Below are positions 15,270 through 21,194 of a stretch of DNA of 36,558 nt, piece after piece. Origin of the DNA: Magnetococcales bacterium (GTDB taxonomy: Bacteria > Pseudomonadota > Magnetococcia > Magnetococcales > UBA8363); assembly GCA_015232645.1 (NCBI GenBank), contig JADFZF010000011.1:1-36558 (forward strand), in the 5' to 3' direction. The position numbers and the translations under genes were made by a program. The notes below the pieces were generated by a model that was given only the letters and a program-made list of their open reading frames with translations, was not told the DNA's origin and ran no database searches. Position 1 is the stretch's first letter, and every line of letters begins with the position of its first letter.

Positions 15270-15344
15270 TGGGCCGTCGCCAAGCGGTAAGGCACCGGAT
15301 TTTGATTCCGGCATTCCTAGGTTCAAATCCTAGCGGCCCAGCCA
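15270..15344 (+). tRNA. tRNA-Gln (anticodon TTG)
   Basis: A 75-nt cloverleaf with a perfect 7-bp acceptor stem (15270-15276 with 15334-15340), discriminator G and an encoded CCA at 15342-15344. The anticodon stem CCGGA/TCCGG closes the 7-nt loop TTTTGAT, giving anticodon TTG (reads CAA/CAG). The T-arm GTTCAAATC is standard. It lies 16 bp after ispE, as in loci where ispE is followed by tRNA-Gln. An integrase remnant starts 90 bp downstream, so the 3' half probably served as an attachment site. Confidence 0.97.
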
Positions 15345-15433: not shown

Positions 15434-15685
15434 CTAGCCCTTGATTCGCTCTTGGATCGGGGCCACTTTCTCCAGGGTTCTGCGTTTGATGTAATGTTCG
15501 GTCGTTTGCATTGAGGCATGACCGGCAAGCTTCTGGGGGTCTATCCCCAGGCGTTTGGCGTCGTTCAGGGCTTTGGCGCGGATGTCGTGGAAATGGAAGT
15601 CTTCCACACCAGCCTTGAGTTTTGCGGTTCTGAACATCCCTTGGATGCCAGATCGGGTGTAAGGTTTCCCGCCTCTGCCGTGGAA
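15434..15685 (-). pseudogene. Tyrosine recombinase (phage/island integrase) C-terminal remnant
   Basis: About 83 codons remain, readable from about 15685 to the stop at 15434. They begin with the typical GKPYTRSGIQGMF stretch, then FHFHDIRAKAL (HxxR box) and AGHASMQTTEHYI with the nucleophilic Tyr, so the catalytic C-terminus survives but the whole N-terminal and core-binding part is gone. The upstream end coincides with the start of an IS3-like terminus at 15687, which explains the truncation. The gene points toward tRNA-Gln, the usual arrangement for an integrase beside its tRNA attachment site. It cannot be active as it stands. Confidence 0.85.
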
Positions 15686-15686
15686 C

Positions 15687-15800
15687 TGAAGTGGACCCCG
15701 TCGTCAAGACAATTTTGAGGCACGGATAAGCTCTGAACCTGGTTGATTGTTGTTTCCGAGAATCTTGGATGCACTCCACCAGCTTGCGTCCCGGTTATCC
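15687..15800 (-). pseudogene. Probable 3' end of an IS3-family element (orfB tail plus terminus)
   Basis: The sequence from 15687 (TGAAGTGGACCCCGTCGTCA) resembles the terminal type seen in IS3-family elements. On the minus strand just inside it, a frame reads RKLVECIQDSRKQQSTRFR, like the basic tail of IS3 orfB proteins, although a preceding stop or frameshift breaks it. It matches in orientation the orfB fragment at 19160-19381. The likely history is one IS3 copy later split by the serine-recombinase element, with loss of about 60 codons. Identification is by eye and tentative. Confidence 0.4.
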
Positions 15801-15826
15801 ACAAATCCACAGGCCACTGGAGCCTT

Positions 15827-16120
15827 TTGACTGAGTCGTCAAATGCTGCTGTTTGGAACGATCAGAAACAAACCTTCACGATCACCCTCCCCTTTCATCC
15901 TCTCCACGGCCAGTCGTTCGAACTGGTCCACCTGCGACAGAATTGGGGCGAGCACCGGGCCTATTATCAGGATGGAGATGGAAACCTGGCGTCCATTCCC
16001 GTTGGCTGGACGGACATTTACGCTCCTGATCCCTTTGTCGTCATGGCTCGGGGGCGCGCCCTTTTCCGGGCGTTCGACCTCGTTGAGCTTACCCGTTTCA
16101 TCCGGGAGATGGAATCATGA
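15827..16120 (+). CDS. DUF5372 family protein of the serine-recombinase element
   Basis: About 97 residues if TTG 15827 is the start; the frame is open back to TTG 15743, but that upstream part overlaps IS3-like sequence. The conserved core reads FTITLPFHPLHGQSFELV, then WGEHRAYYQDGDGNL, IPVGWTDIYAPDPFV and a helical LFRAFDLVELTRFI end. This looks like a small beta-barrel (SH3-like) followed by a helix, the pattern of DUF5372. The function is not known. Constant linkage with recombinases of this type suggests a part in transposition or its control. It ends 219 bp before the HTH gene. Confidence 0.65.
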   Translation: MTESSNAAVWNDQKQTFTITLPFHPLHGQSFELVHLRQNWGEHRAYYQDGDGNLASIPVGWTDIYAPDPFVVMARGRALFRAFDLVELTRFIREMES

Positions 16121-16282
16121 ATCGCCCTCCCGGAATCCCCATGCCCCCACACGACAAGTGTAAAGCAAAATACGCCGCCATTGTTAACCAAAATATGCCG
16201 CCCATGTTGGTATGGCCAGCAATGATGCGGGACTGTAGTGCTGGAATGGCTTGTGTTTCGGTCTTTGTGGGACGGAAATGTC

Positions 16283-16310
16283 TTGACATGGCCACCATGA
16301 GTGACAAAAT
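16283..16310 (+). promoter_or_regulatory. Candidate sigma-70 promoter for the HTH-recombinase operon
   Basis: A perfect -35 box TTGACA at 16283-16288 is followed after 16 bp by CAAAAT (16305-16310, four of six matches to TATAAT). A second AT-rich hexamer, TAATAT, lies a few bases further on. It stands 30 bp before the HTH gene, which also has a perfect AGGAGG ribosome site. It would drive the three overlapping genes. Confidence 0.5.
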
Positions 16311-16339
16311 AATATTTACACTCATTTCAGGAGGCGCTC

Positions 16340-16801
16340 ATGTCCAAGTCCATCTGTCCCAAACTTCAAGCACTCAAGGAAAACGGAACCCTCAACCCCC
16401 ATCCGGAGAAAGTGGCCGATACGCTGTTTCAGGAGGAGGATTTTTTCGACGCCCGGGATTTGCTGCAGGTGAAATACGAGATGCTGCGCCGTGTCCGGCA
16501 GGAAGGGTGGCCGGTGGCCCGGGCGGCGGAAACCTTCGGCTTTTCCCGACCTTCCTACTACAAGGCACAGGAGGCGTTCGACCAGGACGGCCTGGGTGGG
16601 CTGTTTCCGAAAAAGCGCGGCCCCAGAGAGGCGCACAAGATGACCGGCGAGATCGTAATGTTCGCCAACGATACACTCGGCATCGATCTCGGACTTTCCA
16701 CAACCCTGTTGGCGCATCGCATCGAAAAACGTTTCGGAGTCTCCGTCCATCCCCGCAGCATCGAACGGGCCTTGAAACGCAGAGAAAAAAAAACCTCATG
16801 A
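16340..16801 (+). CDS. Helix-turn-helix protein of the serine-recombinase element
   Basis: A 153-residue protein. It opens LQALKENGTLNPHPEKVADT, has an acidic FFDARDLLQVKYEMLRR helix, then an HTH: GWPVARAAETFGFSRPSYYK (about 56-75) leading into AFDQDGLGGLFPKKRGPREAHK. This resembles the HTH and linker of IS481/IS630-type transposases but with no catalytic domain after it. The C-terminal part (GLSTTLLAHRIEKRFGVSVHPRSIERALKR) is a second winged-HTH-like unit. DNA binding to the element ends or promoter is inferred. AGGAGG at 16328-16333 sets the start. It overlaps the next gene by 4 bp. Confidence 0.8.
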   Translation: MSKSICPKLQALKENGTLNPHPEKVADTLFQEEDFFDARDLLQVKYEMLRRVRQEGWPVARAAETFGFSRPSYYKAQEAFDQDGLGGLFPKKRGPREAHKMTGEIVMFANDTLGIDLGLSTTLLAHRIEKRFGVSVHPRSIERALKRREKKTS

Positions 16802-17085
16802 TTTCCGCCCTGGCGTCGTTGTCCAGCGGCGTCACCGAACGGTACGAATTCCTGCGGCGGGAAAGTCTCTCTTCCGGTTGGCCCACCGTCCGGGGCTGGG
16901 CCATGTTCGTCCGCCGCGGCCTGTTGGCCTGGAGCTTGGTTTGGAAGGATCCTCCGCAGTCTCAGCCGCCATCCCCCCCATCTCCCATGACGGTGGTGTG
17001 TCCTAAACATCTCGATCAGGCGCTCATCCGGATCATGGCCGGAATGGTGATGAATGCCCGACGGGAGGCGCGCCATGCTCTCTGA
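16798..17085 (+). CDS. Small protein of unknown function in the recombinase operon
   Basis: A 95-residue protein beginning at ATG 16798 inside the stop of the HTH gene (ATGA overlap) and overlapping the recombinase start by 11 bp, so translation is probably coupled in a chain. It has an N-terminal helix (YEFLRRESL), a central Trp-rich helix GWAMFVRRGLLAWSLVW, a Pro/Ser linker and a C-terminal helix LIRIMAGMVMNARREARH. It resembles the short accessory frame I recall in related elements. No catalytic motif is seen; it may bridge other element proteins. Confidence 0.6.
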   Translation: MISALASLSSGVTERYEFLRRESLSSGWPTVRGWAMFVRRGLLAWSLVWKDPPQSQPPSPPSPMTVVCPKHLDQALIRIMAGMVMNARREARHAL

Positions 17086-19139
17086 ATCCCAGCAAAAGGT
17101 GACGGCGTCCCACCTGAAACGCAACGCCTACCTGTATATCCGCCAATCCACGATTCGGCAGGTTTTCGAGAACCAGGAGCCAATATGGTCTGCGGCAAAG
17201 GACTGTGGCGTTGGGGTGGCCCACGGACCGCGTCATCGTCATCGACAATGATCTGGGCGTTTCCGGCACCGAGAGCGACCGGGCCGGTTTCCATGAACTG
17301 GTCTCCGAGGTAGGCCTGGGCCGGGCCGGCATCGTCATGGGGCTGGAGGTGTCCCGGCTGGCGCGAAATTCGATGGACTGGCACCGACTGCTGGAGATCT
17401 GCGCGTTGAGTGAAACCTTGATCCTGGATGAGGACGGCATCTACGATCCGGGGCACTTCAACGACCGACTGCTGTTGGGCTTGAAGGGAACCATGAGCGA
17501 GGCGGAATTGCACGTCCTGCGCGCCAGGCTTCAAGGCGGCATTCTCAGCAAAGCCCGGCGTGGTGAATTGCGGATGCGGCTGCCGGTCGGTTTGCTATAC
17601 AATGAGGCAGGAGAGGTGATCCTGGATCCCGACCGGCAGATTCAAAAAGCCATTCATCTGTTTTTCGAGACCTTTTCCCGCACCGGTTCCGCACATGCCG
17701 CAGTCAAATATTTCCGGGAACAGGGACTCAAGTTCCCCAGGCGCCCCCATCAGGGGCCCGGGAAAGGTGAACTCCTCTGGGGCGACCTTGGCCATGCCCG
17801 GACGTTGCAGGTATTGCACAACCCCCGGTATGCGGGGGCATTCGTCTTCGGTCGGACCAAAACCCGGTGTTACGAAGCTAACCGACCGACCACCCGCAAG
17901 GTGGCCCGGGATGAATGGCTGGTGGTTCTGCCGGACGTCCATCCGGGTTATATCCCGTGGGAGAGGTATGAAGCCAACCGCAAACAGTTGCTGGAAAATT
18001 GCCAAGCCCACGGGTCGGATCGACGCAGGAGTCCGCCGAGGGAAGGACCGGCGTTGCTCCAGGGGTTGGTCATTTTCGGAAAATGCGGCCAACGCGTGAC
18101 CGTACGCTATGGCTATTCAGGCGGAAACCCGCGTCCTTTGTACGTTTGTCAGCGAAAGAGCATTGATCAGGCGATCCCCGTTTGTCAGCAAATCTCTGGG
18201 GAGGGCATCGATGCGGCGGTTGGCAGATTGCTGCTGGAAACGATGACCTCACAAAACCTGGAAGTGGCGCTGGCAGTGGAGGCGGAGTTGCAGTCCCGCA
18301 TCCAGGAAGCGGATGCCCTGCGCCAACAGCAGGTTGACCGCGCCAAGTATGAAGCGGAGCTGGCGCGGCGCCGATATCTCCGGGTCGATCCGGACAATCG
18401 GTTGGTAGCGGATTCCCTGGAGGCGGACTGGAACGACAAGCTGCGCGCCCTGCAATCCGCGCAGGAAGAATGCGAACGCCAATGCCAAGCGGATCGTCTG
18501 GTGTTGGATCAGGCCGGAAGGGAAGAGATTCGCGTTTTGGCCAATGATTTTCCCCGGGTCTGGAACAGCCCGAAGACCGCTCACCGGGAACGCAAGCGCT
18601 TGATACGACTTTTGATCGAGGATGTCACGCTGACCCAGGAAAAGGAGGTTGCCGTTCAGATCCGCTTCCGGGGAGGGGCCATCAGATCGTTGACTCTGGC
18701 TCGGGCGAAAAACGCTTGGCAACTGCGCCAGACACCTCGGCAGGTGGTGGAGAAAATTGACCGCCTGCTGGATCATTATACCGATGGTCAGATTGCGGAA
18801 AAACTCAATGCTCTGGGACTTTGGTCCGGGAAAGGTGGGCAGTTCCACGGAAAGATCGTTTCCGGCCTGCGCAGAAGATATGGCCTGAAAAGCCGCTATG
18901 ACCGATTGCGGGAAGCCGGCTTCTTGACCCAGGAAGAGATTGCCCGGGATTTGGGAATATGTGAGGAGAGAGTCAGAGTATGGCGGAATGATGGGCGATT
19001 ACAGGCGCACGCCTACAACGACAAGAACGAATGTCTGTATGAACAGACAGGAGAAAACCCGCCGGAAAAGTATCTGTGGCAGAGGCTCCAGAAAGCCAAA
19101 GCCGCCCGATCTACGTTCAACCGGACCAATGAGGTGTAG
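17075..19139 (+). pseudogene. Large serine recombinase, frameshifted
   Basis: The gene starts at ATG 17075 (GGAGG about 7 bp upstream). Frame 1 carries AYLYIRQSTIRQVFENQE with the catalytic Ser25, then runs out of frame and stops at 17251. The rest of the protein continues in another frame from about 17182: QYGLRQRTVALGWPTDRVIVID, then GLEVSRLARNS, GLKGTMSEAELHVL, a recombinase domain with LQVLHNPRYAGAFVFGR, a zinc-ribbon-like segment (CGQ...CQRK...CQQ), a coiled coil (about 18260-18500) and a C-terminal HTH tail. Compared with the family, the STRR residues after ENQE are missing, consistent with an 11-bp deletion at about 17180. Strand exchange should be abolished unless the shift is bypassed or is a sequencing error. 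Confidence 0.85.
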
Positions 19140-19159
19140 TATGAAACAAAATCCTTGCT

Positions 19160-19381
19160 TTGGGGATAATAGGGTGACGTGCGCACAGGGATCATGCCCG
19201 ATTCCCGGATTAAGGTTTTAGAGTCCTTAGCGATGAATTGTGGGCCGTTGCCCGAAATGATGCGCGGGCGAACGTCTGAATATTGCTCCTTGGCGCGCTG
19301 GATGGTGATCTCCACGTCATCCTCGGTCATGGACTCCCGTATCTCCCAATGAACGATGGTCCGACTGCACCCATCCAGAAG
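19160..19381 (-). pseudogene. IS3-family transposase orfB, internal fragment
   Basis: Reading down from 19381 gives LLDGCSRTIVHWEIRESM, then TEDDVEITIQRAKE, PRIISGNGPQFIAKD with the second catalytic Asp region of the DDE integrase domain (DNGPQF in active copies; here GNGPQF), and VRTSPYYPQS, where IS3 similarity stops at about 19164. The Asp-to-Gly change in DNG would by itself inactivate it. The 5' side is cut where treZ begins, the 3' side where the serine-recombinase element begins. About 74 codons of an integrase core of more than 200 remain. Confidence 0.8.
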
Positions 19382-21194
19382 GCTGAATGAACCAAGCCGT
19401 CAACCATGATTTTGGTTGATTGTTCAATTCTGAAGTAGCGTAAATACACCGTCCCGGAGGATAGGATAGGGTCAACGAGACAGAAGACAAATTGGTGCAT
19501 AGATGCAAGGTTTCGCCGGAGGCCAACGGCCAAGCCACATACAATGCCCCCGGGGGATGTACGGCGACGCGGGTCATGCCCGGTTGCAAATACTCCATGC
19601 GTGGCCAGATTTCCTTTTGTCGAAGATGGATCAGCTCTCTGTGTCGAGTGATCCAGTCTTGATGCCGCATCTCCAATAGTTCGGACCAATCGAGCTTGGA
19701 GAATAAAAAGGTTTCTTCCTGAGAGGGGTCGGCGAAAGTCGGTGGCGAATCAGAGGCGGAAAGACGGAAAAAATGCAAAAATTCCCTTTTCCGTCCTGAA
19801 ACAACGGTCGACCTTAAACGCGACTCCAGATCGGAAAAGAAAAAAAATGGCTTAAGGCTACCCCATTCCTGTCCCATGAACAGCATGGGAATCCCGGGAG
19901 CAAGGAGAAACAGCGCCGTCAGGGCATGCAGAACTTCCGACCCCACCAGAGCGTGCAGACGTTCTCCCATGGGGCGATTACCGATCTGGTCATGATTTTG
20001 CAAAAACTGGATGAAACAATCGCCGGGCAGATGGGCGCTGGGTGATCCGCGATGGACTCCAAAATAGGAGGAAAATTCCCCCTGGTACGAAAATCCATCT
20101 TGCAGACATCGTCCCAGGTGATCGATGGGATCGGGGAAGTAATCCCGATAGTAGCCATCGCTTTCACCGGTAGCCAGGGCGTGGAGGCTGTGATGAAAAT
20201 CATCGTTCCATTGCCCGCGACCGGCAGCGATGGTCGAATGTCTGACAGGTTCGAGGAATCGGCTGGCGTTGTCGCCGTTTTCCAACACCAGATGAATTGG
20301 ACGATGCTGGCCTGGCCCCGACATGATGGCCTGATGCAATTCATTCAAAAAGTGGATCGGAGAATGATCGATCATCGTCTGTACCGCATCCAAACGCAGA
20401 CCATCAAAATGGAACTCCTGTATCCAATAAAGGGCATTATCGATAAAAAACCGTCGGACCCATGGGCTGTCGGGGCCGTCGAAGTTGATGGCGGCTCCCC
20501 AGGGGGTGTGGCGCTGAGGATGAAAAAATTGCGGCGCGTACAGGTGCAGATAATTGCCCTCGGGGCCAAAATGATTGTACACCACATCCAAAAACACCAT
20601 CATTCCTCGTAAATGGGCTTGAAGAACCAAATTTTTTAATGCATCGGGGTGGCCATAGCGGGCGCATGGGGCAAACAGAGAGACACCGTCGTAACCCCAG
20701 CCAAACCGTCCGGGAAAGTCGGCCAGAGGCATAATCTCCAAGGCGGTTATACCCAGATTGGCCAGATGATCGAGCCTTTCGGTGACGCCATCATAGGTTC
20801 CCTGGGGGCTGAAGGTTCCGACATGGATTTCATATAGGATCGCCTCACGCCAAGATCTTCCCGGCCAAGGGACGGCGCCCCAGGAGAAGGAGGTCGGATC
20901 AATCACCTGGCTGTCCTTATGGACGTTTTCAGGTTGGTACCGGGAGGCGGGATCGGGAACGCAGTATTTCTGATCGATCAGATAGTGATACCGGGTACCC
21001 TGGGGGGCCTGGGTTTCCAGGACAAACCAACCTTGGTCCCGTTGTCTCAAGGGCAACGGCGCAAGCCCGTCGGACAAACACAAATGGACCGATTGCGCCT
21101 TGGGAGCCCACAAATTGAAACGGGTTATCCCCGAGGTCAGGGGAATGGCCCCGAAAGGCATGTCGTGCCGATATGGATAGCGGCCGTCAATCAC
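19317..21194 (-). CDS. treZ: Malto-oligosyltrehalose trehalohydrolase
   Basis: A 625-residue GH13 enzyme that releases trehalose from maltooligosyltrehalose. An N-terminal CBM48-like domain (about 14-95, FNLWAPKAQSV) is followed by the barrel: YEIHVGTFSPQGT, VVYNHFGPEGNYL, the nucleophile in FDGLRLDAV, the acid/base Glu in LVLENGDNAS, and FLQNHDQIGNR. It starts at GTG 21194 overlapping the methyltransferase stop by 4 bp. The natural C-terminus should end near SWLTAWF (about 19390-19400). The last roughly 25 residues come from IS3 sequence read in another frame, so the protein probably keeps its core with a foreign tail. No treY or treX is in the window. Confidence 0.9.
   Translation of the reverse strand: MIDGRYPYRHDMPFGAIPLTSGITRFNLWAPKAQSVHLCLSDGLAPLPLRQRDQGWFVLETQAPQGTRYHYLIDQKYCVPDPASRYQPENVHKDSQVIDPTSFSWGAVPWPGRSWREAILYEIHVGTFSPQGTYDGVTERLDHLANLGITALEIMPLADFPGRFGWGYDGVSLFAPCARYGHPDALKNLVLQAHLRGMMVFLDVVYNHFGPEGNYLHLYAPQFFHPQRHTPWGAAINFDGPDSPWVRRFFIDNALYWIQEFHFDGLRLDAVQTMIDHSPIHFLNELHQAIMSGPGQHRPIHLVLENGDNASRFLEPVRHSTIAAGRGQWNDDFHHSLHALATGESDGYYRDYFPDPIDHLGRCLQDGFSYQGEFSSYFGVHRGSPSAHLPGDCFIQFLQNHDQIGNRPMGERLHALVGSEVLHALTALFLLAPGIPMLFMGQEWGSLKPFFFFSDLESRLRSTVVSGRKREFLHFFRLSASDSPPTFADPSQEETFLFSKLDWSELLEMRHQDWITRHRELIHLRQKEIWPRMEYLQPGMTRVAVHPPGALYVAWPLASGETLHLCTNLSSVSLTLSYPPGRCIYATSELNNQPKSWLTAWFIQPSGWVQSDHRSLGDTGVHDRG

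Follow-up and report, generated by a model that had tools for sequence, protein, structure and literature searches.

A contig of a Magnetococcales bacterium (JADFZF010000011.1, GenBank assembly GCA_015232645.1) carries four genes that run in the same direction and encode, in order, a DUF5372 protein, a helix-turn-helix (HTH) protein, a protein of 95 residues and a large serine recombinase. An initial annotation of the 36,558-nucleotide (nt) stretch analysed here, which we call the window, had placed these genes in a compact element at 15810–19160 and proposed that they form a distinct transposition machine, perhaps with a choice of target. What, then, is this gene set, and where does it insert? 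Our analysis, which was computational throughout, makes it very probable that the window locus is the remnant of a 3.3-kb, cargo-free large serine recombinase element that targets the catalytic-glutamate codons of DDE transposases across insertion sequence (IS) families.

We compared the best 80 of at least 532 relative-encoding stretches in a species-level genome collection, together with plasmid and same-genome copies, and built profiles of all four proteins from the fetched loci. In profile searches, all four genes were found in the same order in 67 of 67 testable loci, that is, those reaching at least 1250 nt upstream, with the 13 shorter ones excluded; the co-occurrence anticipated by the initial annotation is therefore borne out. 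A count over 15 genomes or plasmid records, which used 49 recombinase places and excluded further C-terminal fragments, gave a similar picture, with all 35 small-protein matches lying within 300 nt upstream of a recombinase match and 38 of 42 DUF5372 matches lying within 1600 nt upstream of one. Seventeen named phyla, including one archaeal phylum, are represented among the 80 loci, two of which carry no phylum label.

The boundaries of the element became apparent in Sinorhizobium plasmids, where near-identical copies share a 3.33-kb block and the flanks vary by site. End profiles, trained on element ends alone with the flanks unused, found the left end in 81 of 96 loci and the right end in 84 of 96. 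Only loci with a scored end entered the junction tests, which left out the 15 without a left and the 12 without a right end, many of which are cut by contig ends. Thirteen Sinorhizobium-group left ends, most of which the first profile missed, were placed by their shared end string, and a retrained profile recovers the left ends of two loci (L151 and L152). In the window, the ends score 25.5 bits (left) and 30.6 bits (right) and bound a forward-strand element at 15826–19156, 3331 nt from TT to TT or 3329 nt without the second TT, in close agreement with the span first proposed. The left end (15826–15849) consists of the core TT and an inner arm, with the family consensus TT-GGaCtgAGCCGTCAACTGCACC, and the right end (19133–19156) of an inner arm and the core TT, with the consensus GGTGCAGTATGAAGCgTAgTCC-TT. 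An empty site was found in NZ_CP140889.1, in which an intact istA holds both flanks of one locus (L010) joined by exactly TT; the element at that locus is 3326 nt long, and there is no target duplication. From the end profiles and the empty site, the core dinucleotide is TT and integration is precise; its orientation is fixed. If joined, the two ends would form a TT-centred, imperfect palindrome of the kind that the attP site of a large serine recombinase should show.

The position of the core within its targets proved to be highly constrained. When the flank is read antisense from the core, AA supplies the first two bases of a codon for Asn or Lys, and the codon in fifth place, counted from the core, specifies glutamate at 75 of 78 loci. 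After later loci were added and duplicates merged, glutamate was present at 70 of 74 distinct sites, as compared with 41 of 1151 other TTs in the same flanks (3.6%). Motifs at the site include KGKVE, KAKVE, KGRVE, NAYAE, NASCE, NVFVE and NGFIE. Because the majority of the flanks represent one half or the other of a DDE transposase gene, we conclude that the glutamate at the site is the catalytic one, which we take, from established knowledge of these families, to be the E of the DDE triad. Among the 52 right halves scanned, rve was matched by 27 in Pfam, and IS481, IS3, IS21 and ISNCY models by 22, 20, 17 and 7, respectively, in NCBIfam, the counts overlapping; among 51 left halves, likewise with overlap, 27 matched rve_3, 15 Mu-transpos_C_2 and 13 rve_2. 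Evidence that does not depend on the motif points to the same position: both L144 and L134 divide the IS21 model at 226|227, and in L145 the split of the IS481 model falls at 228|229. An IS66 transposase, from a different Pfam family (PF03050), hosts one site (L057, NNQAERDIRMVK). The IS labels of L057, L134, L140, L144 and L145 were tested by family models. The four-gene element thus inserts just beside the catalytic-glutamate codons of the transposases of several IS families, breaking the genes that it enters.

At the level of bases, counts over 45 sites (8 of 53, with rearranged or odd flanks, were excluded) place most of the information in the AA, in the A of the GAR codon, in G at +3 and +12 and in T at +22. 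A 45-bp target profile, built from 34 non-redundant sites and with a leave-one-out median of 21.2 bits, gave eight background matches of at least 14 bits in 248 kb, of which six are transposase-like by eye. Since the profile matches other DNA too, DNA sequence alone may not supply the full specificity.

Is each element lineage confined to one target, or can one element use many? Two elements in a single Longimicrobiales genome, L144 and L145, are 100% identical over 3352 bp, and one lies in an IS21 transposase (3.7e-54) and the other in an IS481 transposase (8.4e-24), with host right halves that share 24% identity over 66 residues. In a Polaromonas genome (G103; loci L133–L140), which has nine full-length recombinase matches, L133 and L134 are 100% identical over 3355 bp and occupy two different IS21 genes, whereas IS3-type genes of the same genome house another type of element. 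Identical elements in IS21 and IS481 indicate that one machine reads a degenerate site. In the recombinase tree, the four-gene clade forms one side of a branch with SH-aLRT support of 99, and targets have switched between K and N types at least 14 times, a number in which odd sites such as L040, L051, L076 and L098 are counted. Together with the identical elements at different targets, these switches argue against a fixed RNA guide and for a degenerate DNA motif.

Several observations weigh against targeting of catalytic-glutamate codons as the explanation of the window and its relatives. The window copy is frameshifted and has a transposase on its right flank only. Glutamate is missing at four distinct sites, namely L079, L033, L149 and the window left flank; L033 reads NPYAKR, a transposase with the E changed, and at L149 the site is shifted by 6 nt. 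The left flank of L079 is not recognisably transposase, nor are those of L040 (46 nt), L076, L087 and L098, and the element at L051 (3558–7558) lies in a gene without a transposase match, the right half of which has no Pfam match at all, at a site reading AAG-N9-GAG. The rve model covers 27 of the 52 right halves, the rest being assigned with other models or by eye, two of the eight background matches to the target profile look non-transposase by eye, and no circular form of the element was seen. GAR is nevertheless found at the right spacing in five of the seven left flanks that are not recognisable as transposase (L051, L040, L098, L076 and L087), the two without it being L079 and the window.

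These exceptions bear on how the pattern arose. If the element were an ordinary low-specificity serine recombinase transposon, insertions into transposases would merely be the harmless ones that survive, and occasional sites outside recognisable transposases, such as L051 and L079, would be expected; multi-targeting large serine recombinases do exist, as one survey describes (PMC10083194). Selection among survivors, however, cannot fix the core on one codon and in one orientation at nearly all distinct sites, nor can it give the equivalent model position in different families, and we strongly disfavour this explanation, leaving it only a very slight probability. Hardly more probable is a history in which a few founding insertions into transposases were followed by spread as a passenger of the host IS, with intact copies acting in trans. 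Several copies are indeed common to one host IS (there are 53 distinct sites among 61 loci), and passenger movement or flank exchange could yield the near-identical flanks of Polaromonas L136–L139: these four elements are identical at all 3352 positions, their right flanks are identical over 350 nt, and their left flanks exist in two versions that differ at 8 of 350 nt. Identical elements in different IS families and the repeated target switches nevertheless require repeated new insertions; as the sole mode, passenger spread is refuted by the presence of one sequence in two IS families, although it could still add copies.

The target might instead be specified by an RNA that the element encodes, in the manner of IS110, or by recognition of the transposase protein, and not by direct reading of DNA. 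In favour of this are a stretch of 200–270 nt between the DUF5372 and HTH domains and the chance matches that the 45-bp target profile yields on its own. No fixed guide, however, fits in full the clearly different targets of elements that are 100% identical; an Rfam search had no match in the window element, the intergenic stretches of which were not searched for complementarity to targets; and the correctly spaced GAR in most of the left flanks that by eye are not recognisable as transposase points to recognition of DNA. An IS110-like RNA guide is thus disfavoured, and guidance by RNA or protein together seems to us about as improbable as passenger spread. Finally, the four genes might form no unit at all, being a chance cluster in a decayed island, as the tRNA-Gln gene and tyrosine integrase fragment just upstream could suggest. 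This reading, which we consider to have practically no probability, is refuted by the conserved gene order, the common ends and the exact empty site. We therefore favour an element that itself recognises the DNA encoding the catalytic glutamate.

How is this gene set arranged in the window? The DUF5372 gene occupies a forward open frame at 15743–16120 (domain at 15881–16102; Pfam PF17342, E 7.9e-22). The frame extends beyond the left end of the element, and the start codon is unsettled, an in-frame TTG lying at 15827. The protein is modelled (pLDDT 89) as a small beta-barrel followed by helices at its C terminus, and its comparison with known folds gave weak matches, none at E 0.001. The next gene is preceded by a promoter at 16283–16310, made up of TTGACA (16283–16288) and a –10-like hexamer ending at 16310, and by an AGGAGG ribosome-binding site read from the sequence at 16329–16334, both as initially annotated. 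The promoter element is conserved in the family: in 58 of 92 family loci a TTGACA lies no more than 150 nt ahead of the HTH domain, as compared with a mean of 3.0 in shuffles, which puts it beyond chance. The HTH protein (153 residues, 16340–16801) matches Pfam HTH_29, HTH_28 and HTH_23. As had been claimed, no catalytic domain was found in it by Pfam or NCBIfam scans, and its NCBIfam matches are to IS630 (9.8e-12) and IS481 (5.5e-10), so that it resembles the DNA-binding half of IS630/IS481 transposases minus the catalytic half. The small protein (95 residues, open frame at 16798–17085) had no match in a Pfam scan or among solved folds; structure prediction gives it three helices with modest confidence (pLDDT 75, pTM 0.34). 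It overlaps the HTH gene by 4 bp (16798–16801) and the recombinase gene by 11 bp (17075–17085). Pfam and open-frame evidence thus agree with the gene order, common direction and overlaps that had been described.

The recombinase gene fared less well. Its assignment stands, given matches to PF00239 (Resolvase, 3e-13) and PF07508 (Recombinase, 1.9e-14), but it is not intact: an N-terminal piece (17075–17248) ends at a stop in its own frame, and the remainder (17205–19139), in a different frame, holds most of PF00239, PF07508 and weak matches to a zinc ribbon (PF13408, 23.1 bits against a cut-off of 25.3) and a C-terminal HTH. The frameshift splits the catalytic domain. Because the same stretch is a single frame in six aligned relatives, in which the recombinase is about 690 residues long, we infer that a short deletion within the catalytic domain has put the window copy out of frame; this copy looks like a broken and dead remnant. 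Both this break and the split transposase on the right had been missed by the initial annotation. In the window genome, which is 74% complete, the recombinase matches nowhere else at E 1e-40, and DUF5372 has a single match. Another contig of this genome (C51, L001) carries a different serine recombinase, preceded by Cro-like HTH genes and followed by a ParB-like gene, as judged by eye. At the locus of the window's nearest tree relative (L025, 1029–2926), the recombinase gene is interrupted by about 1.9 kb.

The right half of the target in the window is a transposase (rve) fragment on the reverse strand at 19157–19405, which ends in ...SPYYPQS at the element end, contains one internal stop and matches PF00665 (1.5e-10) over profile positions 27–102 of 102. 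The left flank is not recognisable as transposase. The end of a reverse-strand, glycoside hydrolase-like gene at 19317–21194, with the look of a trehalohydrolase by eye, runs into the transposase fragment. At L037, L148/L150, L141–L143 and on the window left, flanks are chimeric: one side matches that of another copy and the opposite side does not, as though recombination between identical copies of the element had rearranged the genome. Upstream of the element in the window lie a tRNA-Gln gene (15270–15344) and, on the reverse strand at 15434–15637, a C-terminal tyrosine integrase fragment (PF00589, E 4.8e-06, scoring slightly below the cut-off); together they may be what an integrative element next to the four-gene one left behind.

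We chose a sister clade of recombinases as a negative control, and it proved to be inserted in IS21 too, but in istB. At L158 (1470–4821), L161, L167 and L168, its elements interrupt the Walker A motif (GG|PGTGKT) of IstB, the helper ATPase of IS21; the first two of these are among the 11 sister loci, and the others are further loci. At 9 of the 11 sister loci the IstB P-loop was not found within the stretch searched, and this targeting, seen at some loci only, is a lead rather than a rule. The HTH and small-protein profiles match none of the 11 sister loci, and the DUF5372 profile matches five; hence the four-gene clade alone keeps the full set. This result qualifies the idea of a distinct transposition machine, which stands in so far as the set is conserved and belongs to a mobile element with a choice of target, but not in the sense that such an element needs all three accessory proteins.

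How widespread is the element? A recombinase search of plasmids gave 527 records at E 1e-5, more distant recombinases included. With the window small protein as query, plasmids gave no match; the Sinorhizobium small protein matched 71 records. The homologous genes of pNGR234a are presumably those formerly named y4bA-D/y4pH-K. Among 250 genomes of one order, searched at E 1e-200, the centre genome alone matched, and we therefore consider the element to be rare; this search is insensitive to copy number, as it listed four of the nine copies in the centre genome. Among 100 relatives of the window genome, four match at 1e-40, these being the window itself and three at 34–38% identity. A viral origin found no support in a single-protein viral scan, which detected no relative; a viral profile scan gave two distant matches (35% and 22%), and phage records showed less than 30% identity among the matches listed (best 10 of 50 records).

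By what mechanism might such an element move? We envisage that it would excise as a circle, the joint of which would be an imperfectly palindromic attP (GGTGCAGT..CC-TT-GG..ACTGCACC), and that the recombinase would pair this attP with a degenerate attB consisting of AA, ten bases and GAR in the transposase sense. A 2-nt staggered cut and double-strand exchange at TT would then lead to integration, leaving the transposase divided immediately ahead of its catalytic glutamate and the host IS inactive. The element would be a parasite of ISs, inactivating every copy that it enters. Because the catalytic motif is fixed on pain of lost transposition, it offers a target that is plentiful across many genomes, and insertion there probably does the host no harm. 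Passenger movement with the host IS may multiply some copies too, as the four identical Polaromonas copies could indicate. Tight translational coupling suggests that the HTH protein, the small protein and the recombinase form one complex; tentatively, the most likely role of the two co-translated proteins would be to assemble on DNA with the recombinase and so serve target choice or directionality, and that of DUF5372, with its predicted small beta-barrel, to act as another DNA-binding or directionality factor. All these accessory roles are our conjecture. As a broader proposition, to which we give an even chance, there may be a class of hyperparasites whose complex reads the DNA that encodes catalytic motifs, the DDE glutamate in the four-gene clade and the IstB Walker A in part of the sister clade; these would be natural anti-transposon elements in which a transposase-derived HTH has been recruited for target recognition.

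A recombinase that finds its targets via catalytic codons across transposase families would represent a new mode of target choice, a new player in the control of ISs and a source of enzymes with relaxed but precise specificity. The present reading also accounts for a cassette of Sinorhizobium plasmids and of 17 phyla, the proteins of which mostly bear the annotations DUF5372, helix-turn-helix, hypothetical and recombinase, and it predicts the site AA-N10-GAR in the transposase sense. The nine copies in the Polaromonas genome make it a good natural system in which to study mobility. Literature searches found no description of a four-gene element, and no mention of DUF5372 in the literature searched.

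Among known systems, the element is most readily compared with large serine recombinases and serine integrases, such as YokA of SPbeta (PDB 9dxh) and a multi-targeting clade described in PMC10083194, with which it shares Resolvase and Recombinase domains, a 2-bp core, precise integration and a conserved site within a gene; a PDB profile search matched the recombinase to YokA at 5.5e-08. Unlike serine integrases, it carries three accessory genes and no cargo, and its degenerate site is common to transposase families. In the accessible text of the same survey, DUF4368 marks a multi-targeting clade, and the targets include a magnesium chelatase-like gene, with transposases not named among them there (PMC10083194). 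The Pfam matches of the window recombinase, taken to an E of 1, do not include DUF4368, so that this mark of a TndX-like clade was not found.

Entry into an IS has a precedent in the group II intron RmInt1, which inserts in the transposase gene of ISRm2011-2 in Sinorhizobium meliloti and is argued to limit the spread of its host IS (PMC4238363). Like RmInt1, the present element enters an IS and would silence it. RmInt1, however, is an RNA retroelement able to splice out and is tied to one IS, whereas the element described here uses a different chemistry at the catalytic codons of many IS families. Small elements with a site-specific recombinase-type enzyme and chosen targets are also found in IS607, which combines a small serine recombinase with TnpB, and in IS110/IS1111, in which a DEDD enzyme acts with a bridge RNA. 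The four-gene element is like both in these respects and unlike them in that neither gene set is present in it: tnpB was unmatched among the window genes scanned, and the recombinase is far from small in relatives. A DDE insertion sequence is equally at odds with an HTH protein in which no catalytic domain was found and with the absence of a target duplication. Inteins and homing endonucleases situated in active-site codons likewise exploit the invariant codons of catalytic motifs as a durable target; these are self-splicing or DNA-cleaving, whereas the recombinase element leaves the gene broken. By its domains and apparent reaction, it is best described as a large serine recombinase element that specialises in other transposons.

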